From positions 2,805,501 to 2,869,500 of the forward strand of contig NZ_AP028679.1 of NCBI RefSeq assembly GCF_037076455.1: a stretch of DNA of 64,000 bases, read 5' to 3'. How positions within the stretch are numbered: position 1 is the first letter of the stretch; every line of letters begins with the position of its first letter. The notes under the pieces were generated by a model that did not search any database, was not told where the DNA came from, and saw nothing but the letters and a program-made list of their open reading frames with translations. Source of the stretch: Desulfoferula mesophila (GTDB taxonomy: Bacteria > Desulfobacterota > Desulfarculia > Desulfarculales > Desulfarculaceae). The translations under genes were made by a program, and so were the position numbers. Below, in pieces: positions 37,102-45,804 of this stretch.

Positions 37102-37240
37102 GCCTTCGTCCGCGCGGGGCCCTTTAGGAAACTTGCCCCCCTTTCCCTCCAACGCGCTATTATAGAAAAAACGCTTCATCCATGGCCCCACCCGCCCCAC
37201 GGTCCCCGCATGACCGGGGCGTCGTGAGGCCTTGATGACC

Positions 37241-37816: not shown

Positions 37817-39307
37817 ATGCCCCTGTTGCGAACCCTGACCTGCGTGCTGGCCCTGGTGGCGGCCCTGGCCCTCCCGGCCCTGGCCGCGCCCCAGGCCCCC
37901 CTCAGCGAAGCCACCCAGGCCTGTCTGGACTGCCACAACGACGCCACCCCCGGCATCGTGGCCGACTGGCGGCGGGGCCGCATGTCCCAGAAGACCCCGG
38001 CCCAGGCCCTCCAGGAGCCCGAGGCGGCCCGCCGGGTGTCGGCCAAAAAGGTTCCCGCCGATCTGATGCTGGTGGCTGTGGGCTGCGCCGAATGCCACAC
38101 CGGCGACGCCAAGGCCCACGCCGACAGCTTCGATCACGGGGGCTACCAGGTGCACCCGGTGGTCACCCCGGCCGACTGCGCCCGCTGCCATCCCCAGGAG
38201 CGGGAGCAGTATAGCCACAACCTCATGGCCCACGCCAGGGGCAACCTGATCAACAACCCCATCTACATGGACCTGGCTTTGCAGGTCAACGGCGTGCCCA
38301 AGGTGGAGGGCGGCAAGGCCGTGCTTACGCCGCCCAGCGCCCTGGCCGAGGCCGAGTCCTGCCTCTATTGCCACGGAACCGAGATCAAGGTGGAGGGCAA
38401 GCTCACCCGCGACACCGGGGACTTCGGGGAAATGGAGTTCCCCAAGCTGAGCGGCTGGCCCAACCGGGGGGTGGGCCGCAAGAATCCCGACGGCACCTTG
38501 GGCTCATGCAGCGCCTGCCACACCCGCCACCAGTTCGCCATAGAGATGGCCCGTTCGCCCTACACCTGCTCCGAGTGCCACAAGGGCCCCGACGTGCCGG
38601 TGTACAAGGTGTATCAGGTGAGCAAGCACGGCAACATCTACTACGCCATGCACAAGCAGTGGGACATGGCCAAGGTGCCCTGGACCCCGGGCAAGGACTT
38701 CACCGCTCCCACCTGCGCGGCCTGCCACGTCAGCCTCTTGAGCGACGCGGGGGGCAACGTCATCGCCCAGCGCACCCATCAGATGACCGACCGGCTGTGG
38801 GTGCGTCTGCTGGGGCTCATCTACGCCCACCCCCAGCCCAAGAGCCCCGAGACCTGGAAGATAACCAACGCCAACGGGCGAACCCTGGCCACCACTCTCA
38901 CCGGCCAGCCGGCCGCCAAGTTCCTCATTGACGCCCATGAACAGAAGGCGCGCCAAGAGCGCATGGCCAAGGTGTGCGGGGCCTGCCACGCCCAGGGCTG
39001 GGTGCAGGGCCAGTTCGCCCGCCTGGACCAGACCGTCAAGGACTCCGACGCCATGGTCCTGGCCGCCACCCGTCTGATGATGGAGGCCTGGCAAAAGGGC
39101 TTGGCCCAGGGCCCGCCCAAGGCGAGCCCCTTTGACGAATACGTGGAGATGCTGTGGACCAGGCAGTGGCTGTTCTACGCCAACTCCACCCGCTTCGCCT
39201 CGGCCATGATGGGCGCGGACATGGGGGTGTTCGACAACGGCCGCTGGGACATGAACAAAACGGTGCGTCACCTCGAAGACTGGATCAAGGTGCACCAGAA
39301 GCCCTAG
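37817..39307 (+). CDS. Periplasmic octaheme cytochrome c, HAO-like
   Basis: A 496-residue secreted cytochrome with a signal peptide (ending PALA) and exactly eight CxxCH heme sites: CLDCH, CAECH, CARCH, CLYCH, CSACH, CSECH, CAACH and CGACH. Number, length and the SKHGNIYYA segment after the sixth site fit the hydroxylamine oxidoreductase / octaheme reductase group. By my alignment the C-terminal tyrosine that crosslinks to the P460 heme in ammonia oxidisers is not present (GADMG), as in reductive relatives. Its substrate (nitrite, hydroxylamine or a sulfur oxyanion) is unknown. ATG at 37817 has GGAG 6 bases upstream. Confidence 0.85.
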   Translation: MPLLRTLTCVLALVAALALPALAAPQAPLSEATQACLDCHNDATPGIVADWRRGRMSQKTPAQALQEPEAARRVSAKKVPADLMLVAVGCAECHTGDAKAHADSFDHGGYQVHPVVTPADCARCHPQEREQYSHNLMAHARGNLINNPIYMDLALQVNGVPKVEGGKAVLTPPSALAEAESCLYCHGTEIKVEGKLTRDTGDFGEMEFPKLSGWPNRGVGRKNPDGTLGSCSACHTRHQFAIEMARSPYTCSECHKGPDVPVYKVYQVSKHGNIYYAMHKQWDMAKVPWTPGKDFTAPTCAACHVSLLSDAGGNVIAQRTHQMTDRLWVRLLGLIYAHPQPKSPETWKITNANGRTLATTLTGQPAAKFLIDAHEQKARQERMAKVCGACHAQGWVQGQFARLDQTVKDSDAMVLAATRLMMEAWQKGLAQGPPKASPFDEYVEMLWTRQWLFYANSTRFASAMMGADMGVFDNGRWDMNKTVRHLEDWIKVHQKP

Positions 39308-39327
39308 GGCCATAACTAGCGACGCCG

Positions 39328-39358
39328 ACGCCCCGCCGAGATGGCGGGGCGTTTTTTT
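39328..39358 (+). terminator. Strong Rho-independent terminator
   Basis: A 10-bp stem ACGCCCCGCC/GGCGGGGCGT (39328-39337 with 39343-39352), a 5-base loop and a run of Ts. It closes the ferritin-cytochrome unit, 12 bases before the stop of the convergent queE gene. Confidence 0.95.
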
Positions 39359-43280: not shown

Positions 43281-43946
43281 ATGAGTAGTAGCGTAGATAC
43301 CGCTATTTTTGTCAAACCCCCCACCCGGGCGTCGGCCTATCTGGACTGGCTCCAGATGCTGACCGGGGCGGGGCTTATCTTGTTCATGTGGAGCCACATG
43401 GTGCTGGTGGCCAGCGTTAACCTGGGCCCTAACGTGATGAACGCCATCGCCTGGTTTTTCGAGGCCACCTACATGGCCCAGGTGGGCGGACCCATCATCG
43501 GGGCCACCATGCTGCTGCACTTCGTGCTGGCGGCCCGCAAGATTCCCTACACCTCCGACGCCCAGGGCATAATCTGGCGGCACGCCCGCATGATGCGCCA
43601 CACCGACACCTGGCTGTGGCTCATCCAGGCCGTCACCGCCATGGTCATCTTGATCATGGGCTCCATCCACATCTGGACCGTATTGACCAACCTGCCCATC
43701 ACCGCGGCCAAGAGCGCCATGCGGGTGCAGGGCGGCTTCTGGGGCGTGTTCTACCTGATCCTGCTGCCCTGCGTGGAGTTGCACGTGGGCATCGGCTTCT
43801 ACCGCATCGCCGTGAAGTGGGGCTTCATCAAAAGGGACACCCGCAAGGGCTTCCACCGCTTCGAGAACATCTGGACCGGCGTCTTCATCCTGATCGGGCT
43901 AATCACCATCATTCGGCTGTGGACCCTGCCGATTGCTGGCAACTAA
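43281..43946 (+). CDS. frdC: Fumarate reductase diheme cytochrome b subunit
   Basis: A 221-residue membrane anchor with five hydrophobic helices. Four histidines at 39, 80, 130 and 168 have the spacing of the two b-heme ligand pairs in Wolinella FrdC, so this is a diheme quinol-reactive subunit. It exchanges electrons with menaquinol. The gene order C-A-B is also that of Wolinella. The complex may run as fumarate reductase or succinate dehydrogenase; sequence alone does not decide. Confidence 0.93.
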   Translation: MSSSVDTAIFVKPPTRASAYLDWLQMLTGAGLILFMWSHMVLVASVNLGPNVMNAIAWFFEATYMAQVGGPIIGATMLLHFVLAARKIPYTSDAQGIIWRHARMMRHTDTWLWLIQAVTAMVILIMGSIHIWTVLTNLPITAAKSAMRVQGGFWGVFYLILLPCVELHVGIGFYRIAVKWGFIKRDTRKGFHRFENIWTGVFILIGLITIIRLWTLPIAGN

Positions 43947-43959
43947 GGAGGACGCCACC

Positions 43960-45804
43960 ATGGAACACGAGACTTTCTACACTGATCTTCTGTGCGTGGG
44001 GGCCGGCCTGGCCGGCGAGCGGGTCGCCATCTCCGCCGCGGCGGCCGGGTTCGACGCCATCCTCCTCAGCCTGGTGCCCGCCCGGCGCTCCCACTCCTGC
44101 GCGGCCGAGGGCGGCATGCAGGCGGCCCTGGGCAACTGCGCCATGGGCGAGGGCGACAGCCCGGACGTGCACTTCGCCGACACGGTGAAGGGCTCCGACT
44201 GGGGCTGCGACCAGGAATGCGCCCGCATCTTCGCCGACACCGCGCCCACCGCGGTGCGCGAGGCCGCCTACTGGGGCATGCCCTGGAACCGCGTGGTGGC
44301 CGGCAAGGCCAAGTACTGGAAGGGCGGCGAGGAGTTCGAGGCCGAGGAAAAGAAGGACAAGCACGGCCTGATCACCGCCCGCGCCTTTGGCGGCACCGCC
44401 AAATGGCGCACCTGCTACACCGCCGACGGCACCGGCCACACCCTGCTCTACACCCTGGACAACAAGATCACCCAACTGGGGGTGAGCGTGCACGACCGGG
44501 TGGAGGCGGTGAGCCTGATCCACGACGGCGCCAACTGCATGGGCTGCGTGGCCCGCGACCTCAAGACCGGCAAGCTGAGGGTCTACCTGGCCAAGGCCAC
44601 CCTCATCGCCACCGGCGGCTACGGGCGCCTCTACTCCGAGACCACCAACACGGTGATCAACGACGGCGGCGGCCACATCATCGCCCTGGACACCGGCCTG
44701 GTGCCCTTCGGCAACCCCGAGGCCGTGCAGTTCCACCCCACCGGCGTGGTGCCCACCAACATCCTGGTCACCGAGGGCTGCCGCGGCGACGGCGGCACCC
44801 TGCTGGACGTGGACGAGAAGCGCTTCATGGACAAGTACGAGCCCGCCAAGGCCGAGCTGGCCTCGCGGGACGTGGTCAGCCGCTGGATGATGTATCACAT
44901 CGCCCAGGGCAAGGGCGTGCCCTCCCCCTACGGCGACCACCTGTGGCTGGACATCCGCCACCTGGGGGCCAAGCACATAACCACCAAGCTGCGCGAGGTC
45001 TACGACCTGTGCCGCAACTTCCTGGGGGTGGACCCCATCCACCAGCTCATCCCGGTGCGCCCGGCCCAGCACTACTCCATGGGCGGGGTGCGCACCAACA
45101 GCGACGGCGCGGCCTACGGCCTCAAGGGCCTTTTCTCCTGCGGCGAGTCCGCCTGTTGGGACATGCACGGCTTCAACCGCCTGGGCGGCAACTCCCTGGC
45201 CGAGACCATCGTGGCCGGGCGTCACGTGGGCACCAAGGTGGTTGAATTCCTTGAAGGGGCCCAGGTCACTCTTAGCTCCGCCCTGGCCGACGAAGGTCTG
45301 GCCAAGATGGACGAGCGCGTCAAGCGGCTGGTGAACCGGACCGACGGCGCGGAAAACGTCTACGCCATCAGGGACGCCATGCAAAAGGTGATGATGGACA
45401 AGGTGGGCATTTTCCGCAACGGCGACGACCTGCAGTCCGCGGTGGACACCCTGCGCGAAATCTATGCCCAGGCCCAGAAGATCGGCCTGCGCAGCAGCGG
45501 CGTGGGGGCCAACCCCGAGCTGGCCCTGGCGCTCAAGATGCCCGGCATGGTGCGCCTGGCCATCTGCGTGGCCTACGGCGCACTGATGCGCACCGAGAGC
45601 CGGGGCTGTCACGCCCGCGACGACTACAAGGCGCGCAACGACCGTGACTGGCTCAACCGCACCCTGGCCTATTGGCGCGACACCCAGGCGGACCTGCCAA
45701 CGCTGGAGTACGAGCCGTCCACCCAGGTCATGTACCTGCCGCCCGGCGACCGCGGCTATGGCAAGACCGAGATTATTCCCATGGACGCCCCCAAAGAGGA
45801 CTAG
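43960..45804 (+). CDS. frdA: Fumarate reductase flavoprotein subunit
   Basis: The 614-residue catalytic subunit with covalent FAD. The FAD-linking His45 is in RSHSCAAEGG. The active-site segments are QFHPTGVV, EGCRGDGG and RPAQHYSMGG. AAGGAGG precedes the ATG; an upstream in-frame extension overlaps frdC. It interconverts fumarate and succinate on the cytoplasmic side of the membrane. Confidence 0.97.
   Translation: MEHETFYTDLLCVGAGLAGERVAISAAAAGFDAILLSLVPARRSHSCAAEGGMQAALGNCAMGEGDSPDVHFADTVKGSDWGCDQECARIFADTAPTAVREAAYWGMPWNRVVAGKAKYWKGGEEFEAEEKKDKHGLITARAFGGTAKWRTCYTADGTGHTLLYTLDNKITQLGVSVHDRVEAVSLIHDGANCMGCVARDLKTGKLRVYLAKATLIATGGYGRLYSETTNTVINDGGGHIIALDTGLVPFGNPEAVQFHPTGVVPTNILVTEGCRGDGGTLLDVDEKRFMDKYEPAKAELASRDVVSRWMMYHIAQGKGVPSPYGDHLWLDIRHLGAKHITTKLREVYDLCRNFLGVDPIHQLIPVRPAQHYSMGGVRTNSDGAAYGLKGLFSCGESACWDMHGFNRLGGNSLAETIVAGRHVGTKVVEFLEGAQVTLSSALADEGLAKMDERVKRLVNRTDGAENVYAIRDAMQKVMMDKVGIFRNGDDLQSAVDTLREIYAQAQKIGLRSSGVGANPELALALKMPGMVRLAICVAYGALMRTESRGCHARDDYKARNDRDWLNRTLAYWRDTQADLPTLEYEPSTQVMYLPPGDRGYGKTEIIPMDAPKED

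Follow-up and report, generated by a model that had tools for sequence, protein, structure and literature searches.

An IhOCC-type octaheme cytochrome c encoded beside ferritin in Desulfoferula mesophila, and the stress-gene neighbourhoods of its clade

Octaheme cytochromes c resembling hydroxylamine oxidoreductase (HAO) from anaerobes have been discussed as nitrogen-cycle enzymes (for example in PMC5276818 and PMC12758564). Such labelling feeds biogeochemical inference from metagenomes. Here we analyse one such gene, which lies directly downstream of a ferritin gene in a 64,000-nucleotide stretch of the Desulfoferula mesophila genome (NZ_AP028679.1, positions 2,805,501 to 2,869,500; hereafter the window). 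In Nitrosomonas HAO (NeHAO, 1FGJ), we take Asp267-His268 to be the catalytic residues, the fourth heme to be the active-site heme, and Tyr467 to be the crosslinking tyrosine (P460 heme). The closest solved structure to the window protein, 4QO5, is presumably that of IhOCC, an octaheme cytochrome c of the archaeon Ignicoccus hospitalis, which reportedly reduces nitrite and hydroxylamine in vitro. The window protein probably serves in stress protection and not in nitrogen respiration, and we propose, with moderate confidence, that it is a periplasmic stress-defence reductase of strict anaerobes.

Gene neighbourhoods of the clade and of the window

Neighbourhoods were compared in 80 loci of the clade to which the window protein belongs, the best 80 of 388 relatives in the genome collection, by clustering of open reading frames (ORFs), Pfam naming of ten representatives, and counts with hidden Markov models (HMMs) within 6 kb. 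The recurrent neighbours are desulfoferrodoxin (29 loci), an exported AhpC/TSA peroxiredoxin (28), a rubrerythrin-like protein (24), flavodiiron protein (20), ferritin (16), rubrerythrin (12), and, in nine loci each, a TlpA-like protein, a Fur-family protein (one member named by Pfam) and a five-heme c554-like cytochrome. With the exception of one peroxiredoxin locus, every locus counted has a same-strand copy of the recurrent neighbour. A DsrE-like gene is also present in nine loci. At least one of seven stress families (desulfoferrodoxin, exported peroxiredoxin, rubrerythrin-like, flavodiiron, ferritin, rubrerythrin and TlpA-like) is present in 51 of the 80 loci, and in 21 of the 30 loci with at least 6 kb on both sides; at least two of six stress families are present in 33/80 and, with full flanks, in 13/30. 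Same-strand gene runs around the octaheme (gaps <350 bp) contain a stress gene in 43 of the 80.

The stress families were picked after viewing these 80 loci, and the list and HMMs were then fixed for a replication sample. This sample comprised the neighbourhoods of 29 of the 32 carriers found among 118 genomes, an even sample of the phylum (protein search, E at most 1e-100), the other three having been collected before; removal of three loci identical to members of the 80 left 26, some of them cut by contig ends. Any of the seven families is found within 6 kb in 12 of the 26 loci (8/15 with full flanks), and at least two of six in 9/26, the individual counts being desulfoferrodoxin 8, rubrerythrin 7, rubrerythrin-like 6, flavodiiron 5, peroxiredoxin 4, ferritin 2 and TlpA 1. 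The stress-gene link is real and concerns about half of the clade, at a rate below that of the first sample.

In control comparisons, 20 segments of 20 kb each, placed arbitrarily in seven carrier genomes, contain none of the seven families, and of 17 sister-clade loci (six of them on stretches <12 kb), two have a stress family within 6 kb. Furthermore, in 40 genomes taken from the 80, mostly chosen for long flanks, desulfoferrodoxin (copies identified by Pfam) lies within 6 kb of the octaheme in 18, where 50 uniformly placed copies would be expected to give 0.22. These phylum-wide neighbourhoods strengthen the hint at oxidative or nitrosative stress that an initial annotation, made from the letters of the window and their ORFs alone, had drawn from the ferritin.

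The c554-like cytochrome, which has five CxxCH motifs where complete, lies near the octaheme in L061, L065, L067, L070, L088, L089, L095, L096 and L126, placed directly or one gene upstream of it, mostly directly; L169 also has such a five-heme cytochrome within 6 kb. It is a candidate electron partner of the octaheme. In L077, L085 and L093, inspected by eye, there are no stress genes, and the downstream genes encode a CopZ-like heavy-metal-binding protein, a copper-type P-ATPase and an MscS-like protein.

In the window, the ferritin gene ends 30 bp before the octaheme gene on the same strand, and a terminator-like hairpin lies about 20 bp past the octaheme stop codon (Table 1); the terminator scan of the region gave four such hairpin sites versus 2.5 expected in shuffles. 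Given this hairpin, ferritin and octaheme look like a two-gene operon. The scan did not pick up the promoter-like element in front of ferritin; a like sequence, weak and recognised by eye, stands upstream of ferritin in L036 and L048. Among 13 related loci, ferritin is directly upstream of the cytochrome in ten, about 3.3 kb upstream in one and absent in two, and two of the three loci without a directly upstream ferritin come from other families of the class. The pair is kept while the flanking genes (xanthine-dehydrogenase-like, thiF-like and fumarase-like, named by eye) change. In the window genome's family, the stress context is reduced to this ferritin-cytochrome pair. By eye from ORF translations, the fumarase-like genes of the window are followed by genes for a fumarate reductase-like flavoprotein and a cytochrome-b-like protein (43281-45804, +).

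Table 1. Coordinates of the octaheme gene, its features and neighbours (window positions), and of the extended octaheme modules (locus positions)
Feature	Position	Strand	Basis or remark
Octaheme cytochrome c, HAO fold family, IhOCC-type clade	37817..39307	+	ORF, PF13447, 4QO5 match, trees
Fourth CxxCH (C182-H186)	38360..38374	+	sequence; presumed five-coordinate heme here
Asp259-Val260, aligned with Asp267-His268 of Nitrosomonas HAO (1FGJ)	38591..38596	+	alignment
Met469, aligned with the PDY tyrosine of sister-clade octahemes	39221..39223	+	alignment
Ferritin, 171 aa	37271..37786	+	PF00210, E 6.2e-43
Terminator-like hairpin with T-tract	39327..39353	+	12-pair stem, 9 G-C; terminator scan
Promoter-like TTGCCC-(19)-TATTAT, upstream of ferritin	37133..37163	+	by eye only
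Extended octaheme module	L034:8213-10432	-	about G000:C1 1385.2-1387.4 kb
Extended octaheme module	L152:6755-8956		
Extended octaheme module	L154:9506-11734		
Extended octaheme module	L159:7861-10026		
Extended octaheme module	L161:7418-9595		

The window genome, a single 4.48-Mb contig, contains three HAO-family octahemes: the window gene and two genes of the sister clade. Specifically, the paralog at about 2.318 Mb directly follows a NapC/NrfH tetraheme gene, which is the single PF03264 match in the genome and lies about 0.5 Mb from the window gene, while the paralog at about 1.386 Mb is fused to a CopD-like membrane domain. For NrfA (PF02335), the genome gives a sub-threshold match only. 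The label 'orphan' in the initial annotation is misleading, because the octaheme has a recurrent ferritin partner and two further HAO-family octahemes share its genome. The same annotation had pointed out that no NapC/NrfH-type quinol dehydrogenase is adjacent, and this is true not only of the window but nearly clade-wide: a tblastn search with the window genome's own NrfH, which could miss diverged ones, found NapC/NrfH in none of the 80 clade loci, many of them on short contigs, in one of the 26 further loci, and in 14 of 17 sister-clade loci. The weak match in L169 is the five-heme cytochrome. An epsilon-HAO system, or reverse hydroxylamine-ubiquinone redox module (reverse-HURM), was ruled out for the window gene, which has no adjacent NapC/NrfH, while the paralog at about 2.318 Mb is arranged in just this way.

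Five sister-clade loci (L034, L152, L154, L159 and L161) encode octaheme modules with a long N-terminal extension, with nine CxxCH motifs in all. In the three tested (L034, L152 and L161), the extension matches a CopD-like membrane domain and, weakly, cytochrome b5 (Pfam), and the extended module is possibly a self-contained, membrane-anchored octaheme reductase.

Family placement and active site of the octaheme

The octaheme protein comprises 496 residues from ATG 37817, an alternative start being GTG 37814. The first Cys residues of its CxxCH motifs are at positions 36, 90, 121, 182, 231, 251, 300 and 387, and there is no CxxCK in the whole sequence; the 16 Cys residues all fall within CxxCH pairs, the sole extra being Cys9 in a signal-like segment. 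By eye, the N-terminus is hydrophobic and resembles a Sec signal peptide, and the protein is exported-looking, with a predicted periplasmic location. The PF13447 model matches at 73.5 bits (Pfam cut-off 21.9), a score so far over the cut-off that the octaheme observation is not a matter of chance, whereas the NCBIfam hydrazine dehydrogenase (HDH) equivalog reaches 66.3 bits against a cut-off of 900. The NrfA and NrfH models return a single sub-threshold NrfH match. The fit to the HAO family, which the initial annotation had based on eight CxxCH sites and an SKHG segment, is borne out: eight sites are counted, SKHG occupies residues 269-272, and PF13447, fold and trees agree.

Among solved structures, 4QO5 is the closest by sequence (E 2.4e-128), and the seven other matches are at E 1.4e-20 or weaker, including Kuenenia HAOr (6H5L, 1.4e-20) and Nitrosomonas HAO (8e-15). 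In a quick tree of 109 rows, 86 of which form the clade (two being identical copies of one protein), the clade groups with 4QO5 at a support of 99 in the Shimodaira-Hasegawa-like approximate likelihood ratio test, the NrfH-linked genes form the sister group, and the HAO references 1FGJ, 4N4J and 6H5L (HDH not included) stand apart at 100. Long branches were flagged in this tree, 4QO5 itself being one. A reduced, more careful tree of 44 rows recovers the same grouping of the clade with 4QO5 at 100/99, with a bootstrap not fully settled, and rejects the joining of 4QO5 to the NrfH-linked sister clade (approximately unbiased test, p-AU 0.005). In these trees, from which OTR, MccA and ONR were absent, the window protein did not fall outside the HAO/octaheme reductase clade, the outcome that the initial annotation had named as refuting its reading. 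An AlphaFold model (predicted local distance difference test score 83.7, predicted template modelling score 0.82), built without hemes and used for family confirmation only, retrieves 4QO5 first in Foldseek (E 2.6e-35) and then HAO-type structures, and its whole-chain superpositions are poor, with a root-mean-square deviation of about 19 Å. Judged by sequence comparison, the window protein belongs to the IhOCC-type clade and not to HAO proper.

The nearest relatives by octaheme protein include records named Desulfarculaceae, and many clade hosts bear names of sulfate reducers or sulfur anaerobes. The clade also occurs in records labelled Zixibacteria (L060, L100, L105, L120 and L127); rubrerythrin-like and flavodiiron genes lie beside the octaheme in L060 and L105, and other multiheme cytochromes lie nearby in L120 and L127. 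The clade member in L189 (G171:C5) has one in-frame TAG stop, and may be broken or reflect a sequencing error.

Conservation of the active site was read from a first alignment of 86 deduplicated sequences (85 loci and the window) and from a second set of 26 further loci, drawn without sequence patterns, a few rows of which are cut by contig ends. At the position of the HAO catalytic His, none of the 112 clade members has His. In particular, position 260 is Val in 86/86 of the first alignment, whose retrieval was partly biased to Val since one of the two patterns behind it contained Val260, while in the second set 23 loci have Val, two have Ala and one has Thr, giving Val in 109 overall. Of 20 sister-clade ORFs, 18 keep the His in a GPDH motif, one has Glu, and one is without the motif. 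This loss of the catalytic His, leaving Asp-Val, went unremarked in the initial annotation and is a more diagnostic difference than the tyrosine.

The position of the crosslinking tyrosine is occupied by Tyr in 98 of the 112 clade members, namely in 73 of the 86, with Met in 6 (Met469 in the window protein), Leu in 5 and His in 2, and in 25 of the 26, with a gap in the remaining one. The Met and Leu cases, the window included, all fall within the window genome's family by taxonomic label, and L046 and L047 of the same family keep Tyr. Because so many relatives have Tyr, its loss is mainly a trait of the window genome's family. The initial annotation, which had described this tyrosine as apparently absent, as in reductive members, was thus right about the window protein and not about the protein family. 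Elsewhere, the aligned residue is Val in 6H5L and Trp in 4QO5, and 17 of the 20 sister-clade ORFs have a PDYxWW motif there. The C-terminus of 1FGJ gave no sequence alignment in three attempts, so the match to NeHAO Tyr467 is indirect, made by way of the sister clade together with 6H5L and 4QO5.

Seven His residues outside the heme motifs are conserved. In the first alignment, His101, His107, His238, His271 and His321 are each present in 86/86, His113 in 85/86 and His338 in 79/86; in the second set, the corresponding counts are 24, 25, 26, 26 and 26, followed by 22 and 22. From eight hemes and seven conserved distal His residues, we infer seven bis-His hemes and one open heme, which would be five-coordinate; the less conserved His113 and His338 weaken this count for some members. 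A pocket segment with D259, Y266 and H271 is likewise conserved in the clade.

Proposed function and rival explanations

In the stress-defence reading proposed here, electrons would be supplied by low-potential periplasmic cytochromes of c3/c554 type or by a membrane donor whose gene lies elsewhere, the seven bis-His hemes would serve as electron wires, and turnover would take place at the one open five-coordinate heme. This catalytic heme would reduce small reactive species that cross the envelope, converting NO, hydroxylamine or nitrite to ammonia and possibly H2O2 to water. A cytoplasmic arm, ferritin here and desulfoferrodoxin, rubrerythrin and flavodiiron protein elsewhere, would clear superoxide, peroxide and O2, and iron released from damaged clusters would be bound in the cytoplasm by ferritin. 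The partnership of ferritin and octaheme would then be one of regulation, not of contact. Two sets of substrates come into question: NO, hydroxylamine and nitrite are suggested by the reported activity of IhOCC, and H2O2 by the neighbours and the NrfA precedent. NrfA of Wolinella is cited in a review as a defence against nitrite, NO, hydroxylamine and H2O2 (PMC9144841).

A more specific proposal, which we put forward tentatively and regard as possible at best, casts the IhOCC-type clade as a periplasmic component of oxygen defence in strict anaerobes that has so far gone unrecognised. The octaheme would be dedicated to this role and would reduce peroxide (or O2 or NO) on the outer side of the inner membrane with low-potential respiratory electrons, alongside the exported peroxiredoxin and the cytoplasmic set of desulfoferrodoxin, rubrerythrin, flavodiiron protein and ferritin, and would be a peroxidase or NO reductase that evolved from the HAO fold, its catalytic His replaced by a small residue (Val or, in a few members, Ala or Thr).

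Several observations weigh against a stress-defence role. No stress family lies within 6 kb in 29 of the 80 loci, nine of which have full flanks and include that of the cultured Thermosulfurimonas dismutans (L109), nor in 14 of the 26 independent loci. In the latter sample, two stress matches, one peroxiredoxin and one rubrerythrin-like, lie on the opposite strand only; the sole stress match in L191 and one of two in L185 are on that strand. The binomial figure for desulfoferrodoxin linkage overstates the significance, because related genomes share clusters by descent. A 2-oxoacid:ferredoxin oxidoreductase-like gene, with no obvious stress role, is found in 14 of the 80 loci, each time with a same-strand copy. 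The single NapC/NrfH case in the further loci is L177, in which a NapC-like gene with four heme motifs (L177:12719-13192) is separated from the octaheme by about 4 kb; desulfoferrodoxin and peroxiredoxin are present in this locus as well. In the window genome, ferritin alone is linked to the octaheme: the two desulfoferrodoxin genes are >0.5 Mb away, one of them about 10 kb from the NrfH-linked paralog, and a flavodiiron-like match lies about 8 kb from that paralog, so some stress context is found in the sister clade too. No convincing PerR/Fur palindrome was seen by eye in 11 aligned regions upstream of ferritin. Ferritin is cytoplasmic and the cytochrome exported, which precludes action by contact unless the localisation differs.

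Respiratory ammonification is a different account of the same gene, in which the octaheme would mainly support growth by reducing nitrite (or hydroxylamine) on a pathway from nitrate/nitrite to ammonium, supplied with quinol electrons via an unlinked donor. It would suit the clade's inclusion of 4QO5, a reported nitrite and hydroxylamine reducer, the lack of an NrfA above the Pfam cut-off in the window genome, and the NapC-like gene in L177. HAO-like genes of T. dismutans have also been proposed to serve nitrite reduction in one study (PMC5276818). We consider this account unlikely, given the near absence of NapC/NrfH from clade loci, a set of recurrent neighbours in which no nitrogen-cycle gene was recognised by eye (ten representatives Pfam-named) and the commonest are oxygen-defence genes, and a window genome that already has an NrfH-linked HAO-like gene for such a role. 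The octaheme might instead be an electron-transfer hub with no substrate chemistry of its own, wiring periplasmic carriers to the exported peroxiredoxin and TlpA or to the c554-like cytochrome. The recurrence of that cytochrome in 9/80 loci fits such a hub, as does the placement, within 400 bp of the octaheme, of peroxiredoxin upstream in 11 loci and of a TlpA-like gene downstream in 8, and the hydrogenase of I. hospitalis is reported to reduce its octaheme cytochromes (PMC4429474). The seven distal His residues for eight hemes and the conserved pocket nonetheless point to one open site, and make a mere hub improbable.

Reduction of a sulfur oxyanion (sulfite or tetrathionate), as by MccA or OTR and as listed among the options in the initial annotation, has no positive evidence and seems to us very doubtful. 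Multiheme nitrite reductases can also reduce sulfite, and the host names already mentioned would be in keeping with such chemistry, but the CxxCH motif is plain at all eight sites, unlike the long MccA motif, and among the recurrent neighbours no sulfur oxyanion gene was recognised by eye, the DsrE-like gene being the sole sulfur-related hint. OTR (1sp3) appears in the fold comparison as a row at Z 2.0, too little to speak for or against. Oxidation of hydroxylamine (or of another nitrogen compound) as in HAO is hardly credible: the fold family and the tyrosine retained by most relatives speak for it, but the equivalent of catalytic His268 is replaced in 112/112, the window protein has Met469, the HDH model falls far short of its cut-off, and the tree sets the octaheme apart from the HAO references. 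An oxidative HAO identity was ruled out by Val260, Met469 and the tree placement.

If the octaheme is indeed a stress-defence reductase, the nitrogen-cycle annotations of the IhOCC-type clade need correcting, a testable hypothesis emerges for what IhOCC does in Ignicoccus, and the presence or absence of the tyrosine alone would not safely predict whether an HAO-type protein acts oxidatively or reductively, because most of the clade has the tyrosine without the catalytic His.

Comparison with known systems

The protein family is already known through 4QO5. Our searches of the open-licence literature, in its accessible parts, found no report of an octaheme linked to desulfoferrodoxin, rubrerythrin or peroxiredoxin clusters. 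Work on O2-exposed sulfate reducers names Roo, desulfoferrodoxin, rubrerythrin and oxidases, and its accessible part mentions no octaheme (PMC11451228).

Among functionally related enzymes, NrfA of Wolinella and Escherichia coli is a multiheme nitrite reductase and sets a precedent for detoxifying NO, hydroxylamine and H2O2 (PMC9144841), but it is a pentaheme of another family, usually with CxxCK, which the window octaheme does not have. With regard to motifs and ligands in general, some NrfA proteins carry CxxCH, so that a missing CxxCK alone is a weak criterion; MccA has an unusually long heme motif, CX15CH, which is not found in the window octaheme; and OTR has a Lys-ligated active-site heme.

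Within the HAO fold, the NapC/NrfH-linked octahemes of the sister clade (L035 and relatives, reverse-HURM-like) share host genomes, fold and, in the octaheme part, eight hemes with the present clade, and differ from it in their NapC/NrfH neighbours (14/17 loci), the GPDH (18/20) and PDYxWW (17/20) motifs, and the rarity of stress families (2/17). Kuenenia HAOr (kustc0458, 6H5L) shares the HAO fold with the window protein, likewise has a residue other than Tyr at the aligned site, and reduces nitrite, a reductive role like that proposed here, but keeps the Asp-His pair and lies on a separate branch. For this enzyme, PMC12485887 describes a redox partner, kustc0457, and its reference list gives a paper on 6H5L whose title states that the crosslink is absent.

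A study of anammox evolution, whose text does not contain the words 'oxidative stress', groups the lineage HAO5A with Ignicoccus and Ferroglobus and finds them within large clades to which many Desulfobacterota species also belong (PMC12758564). Set side by side by description only, HAO5A is probably the same clade as that of the window octaheme or a neighbouring one. The closest described protein is IhOCC, which differs in being archaeal and on a long branch, and which shares with the window octaheme its clade, similarity over the full length, eight heme motifs, the same Asp-Val pair, and a residue other than Tyr (Trp in 4QO5, Met in the window) at the crosslinking position.

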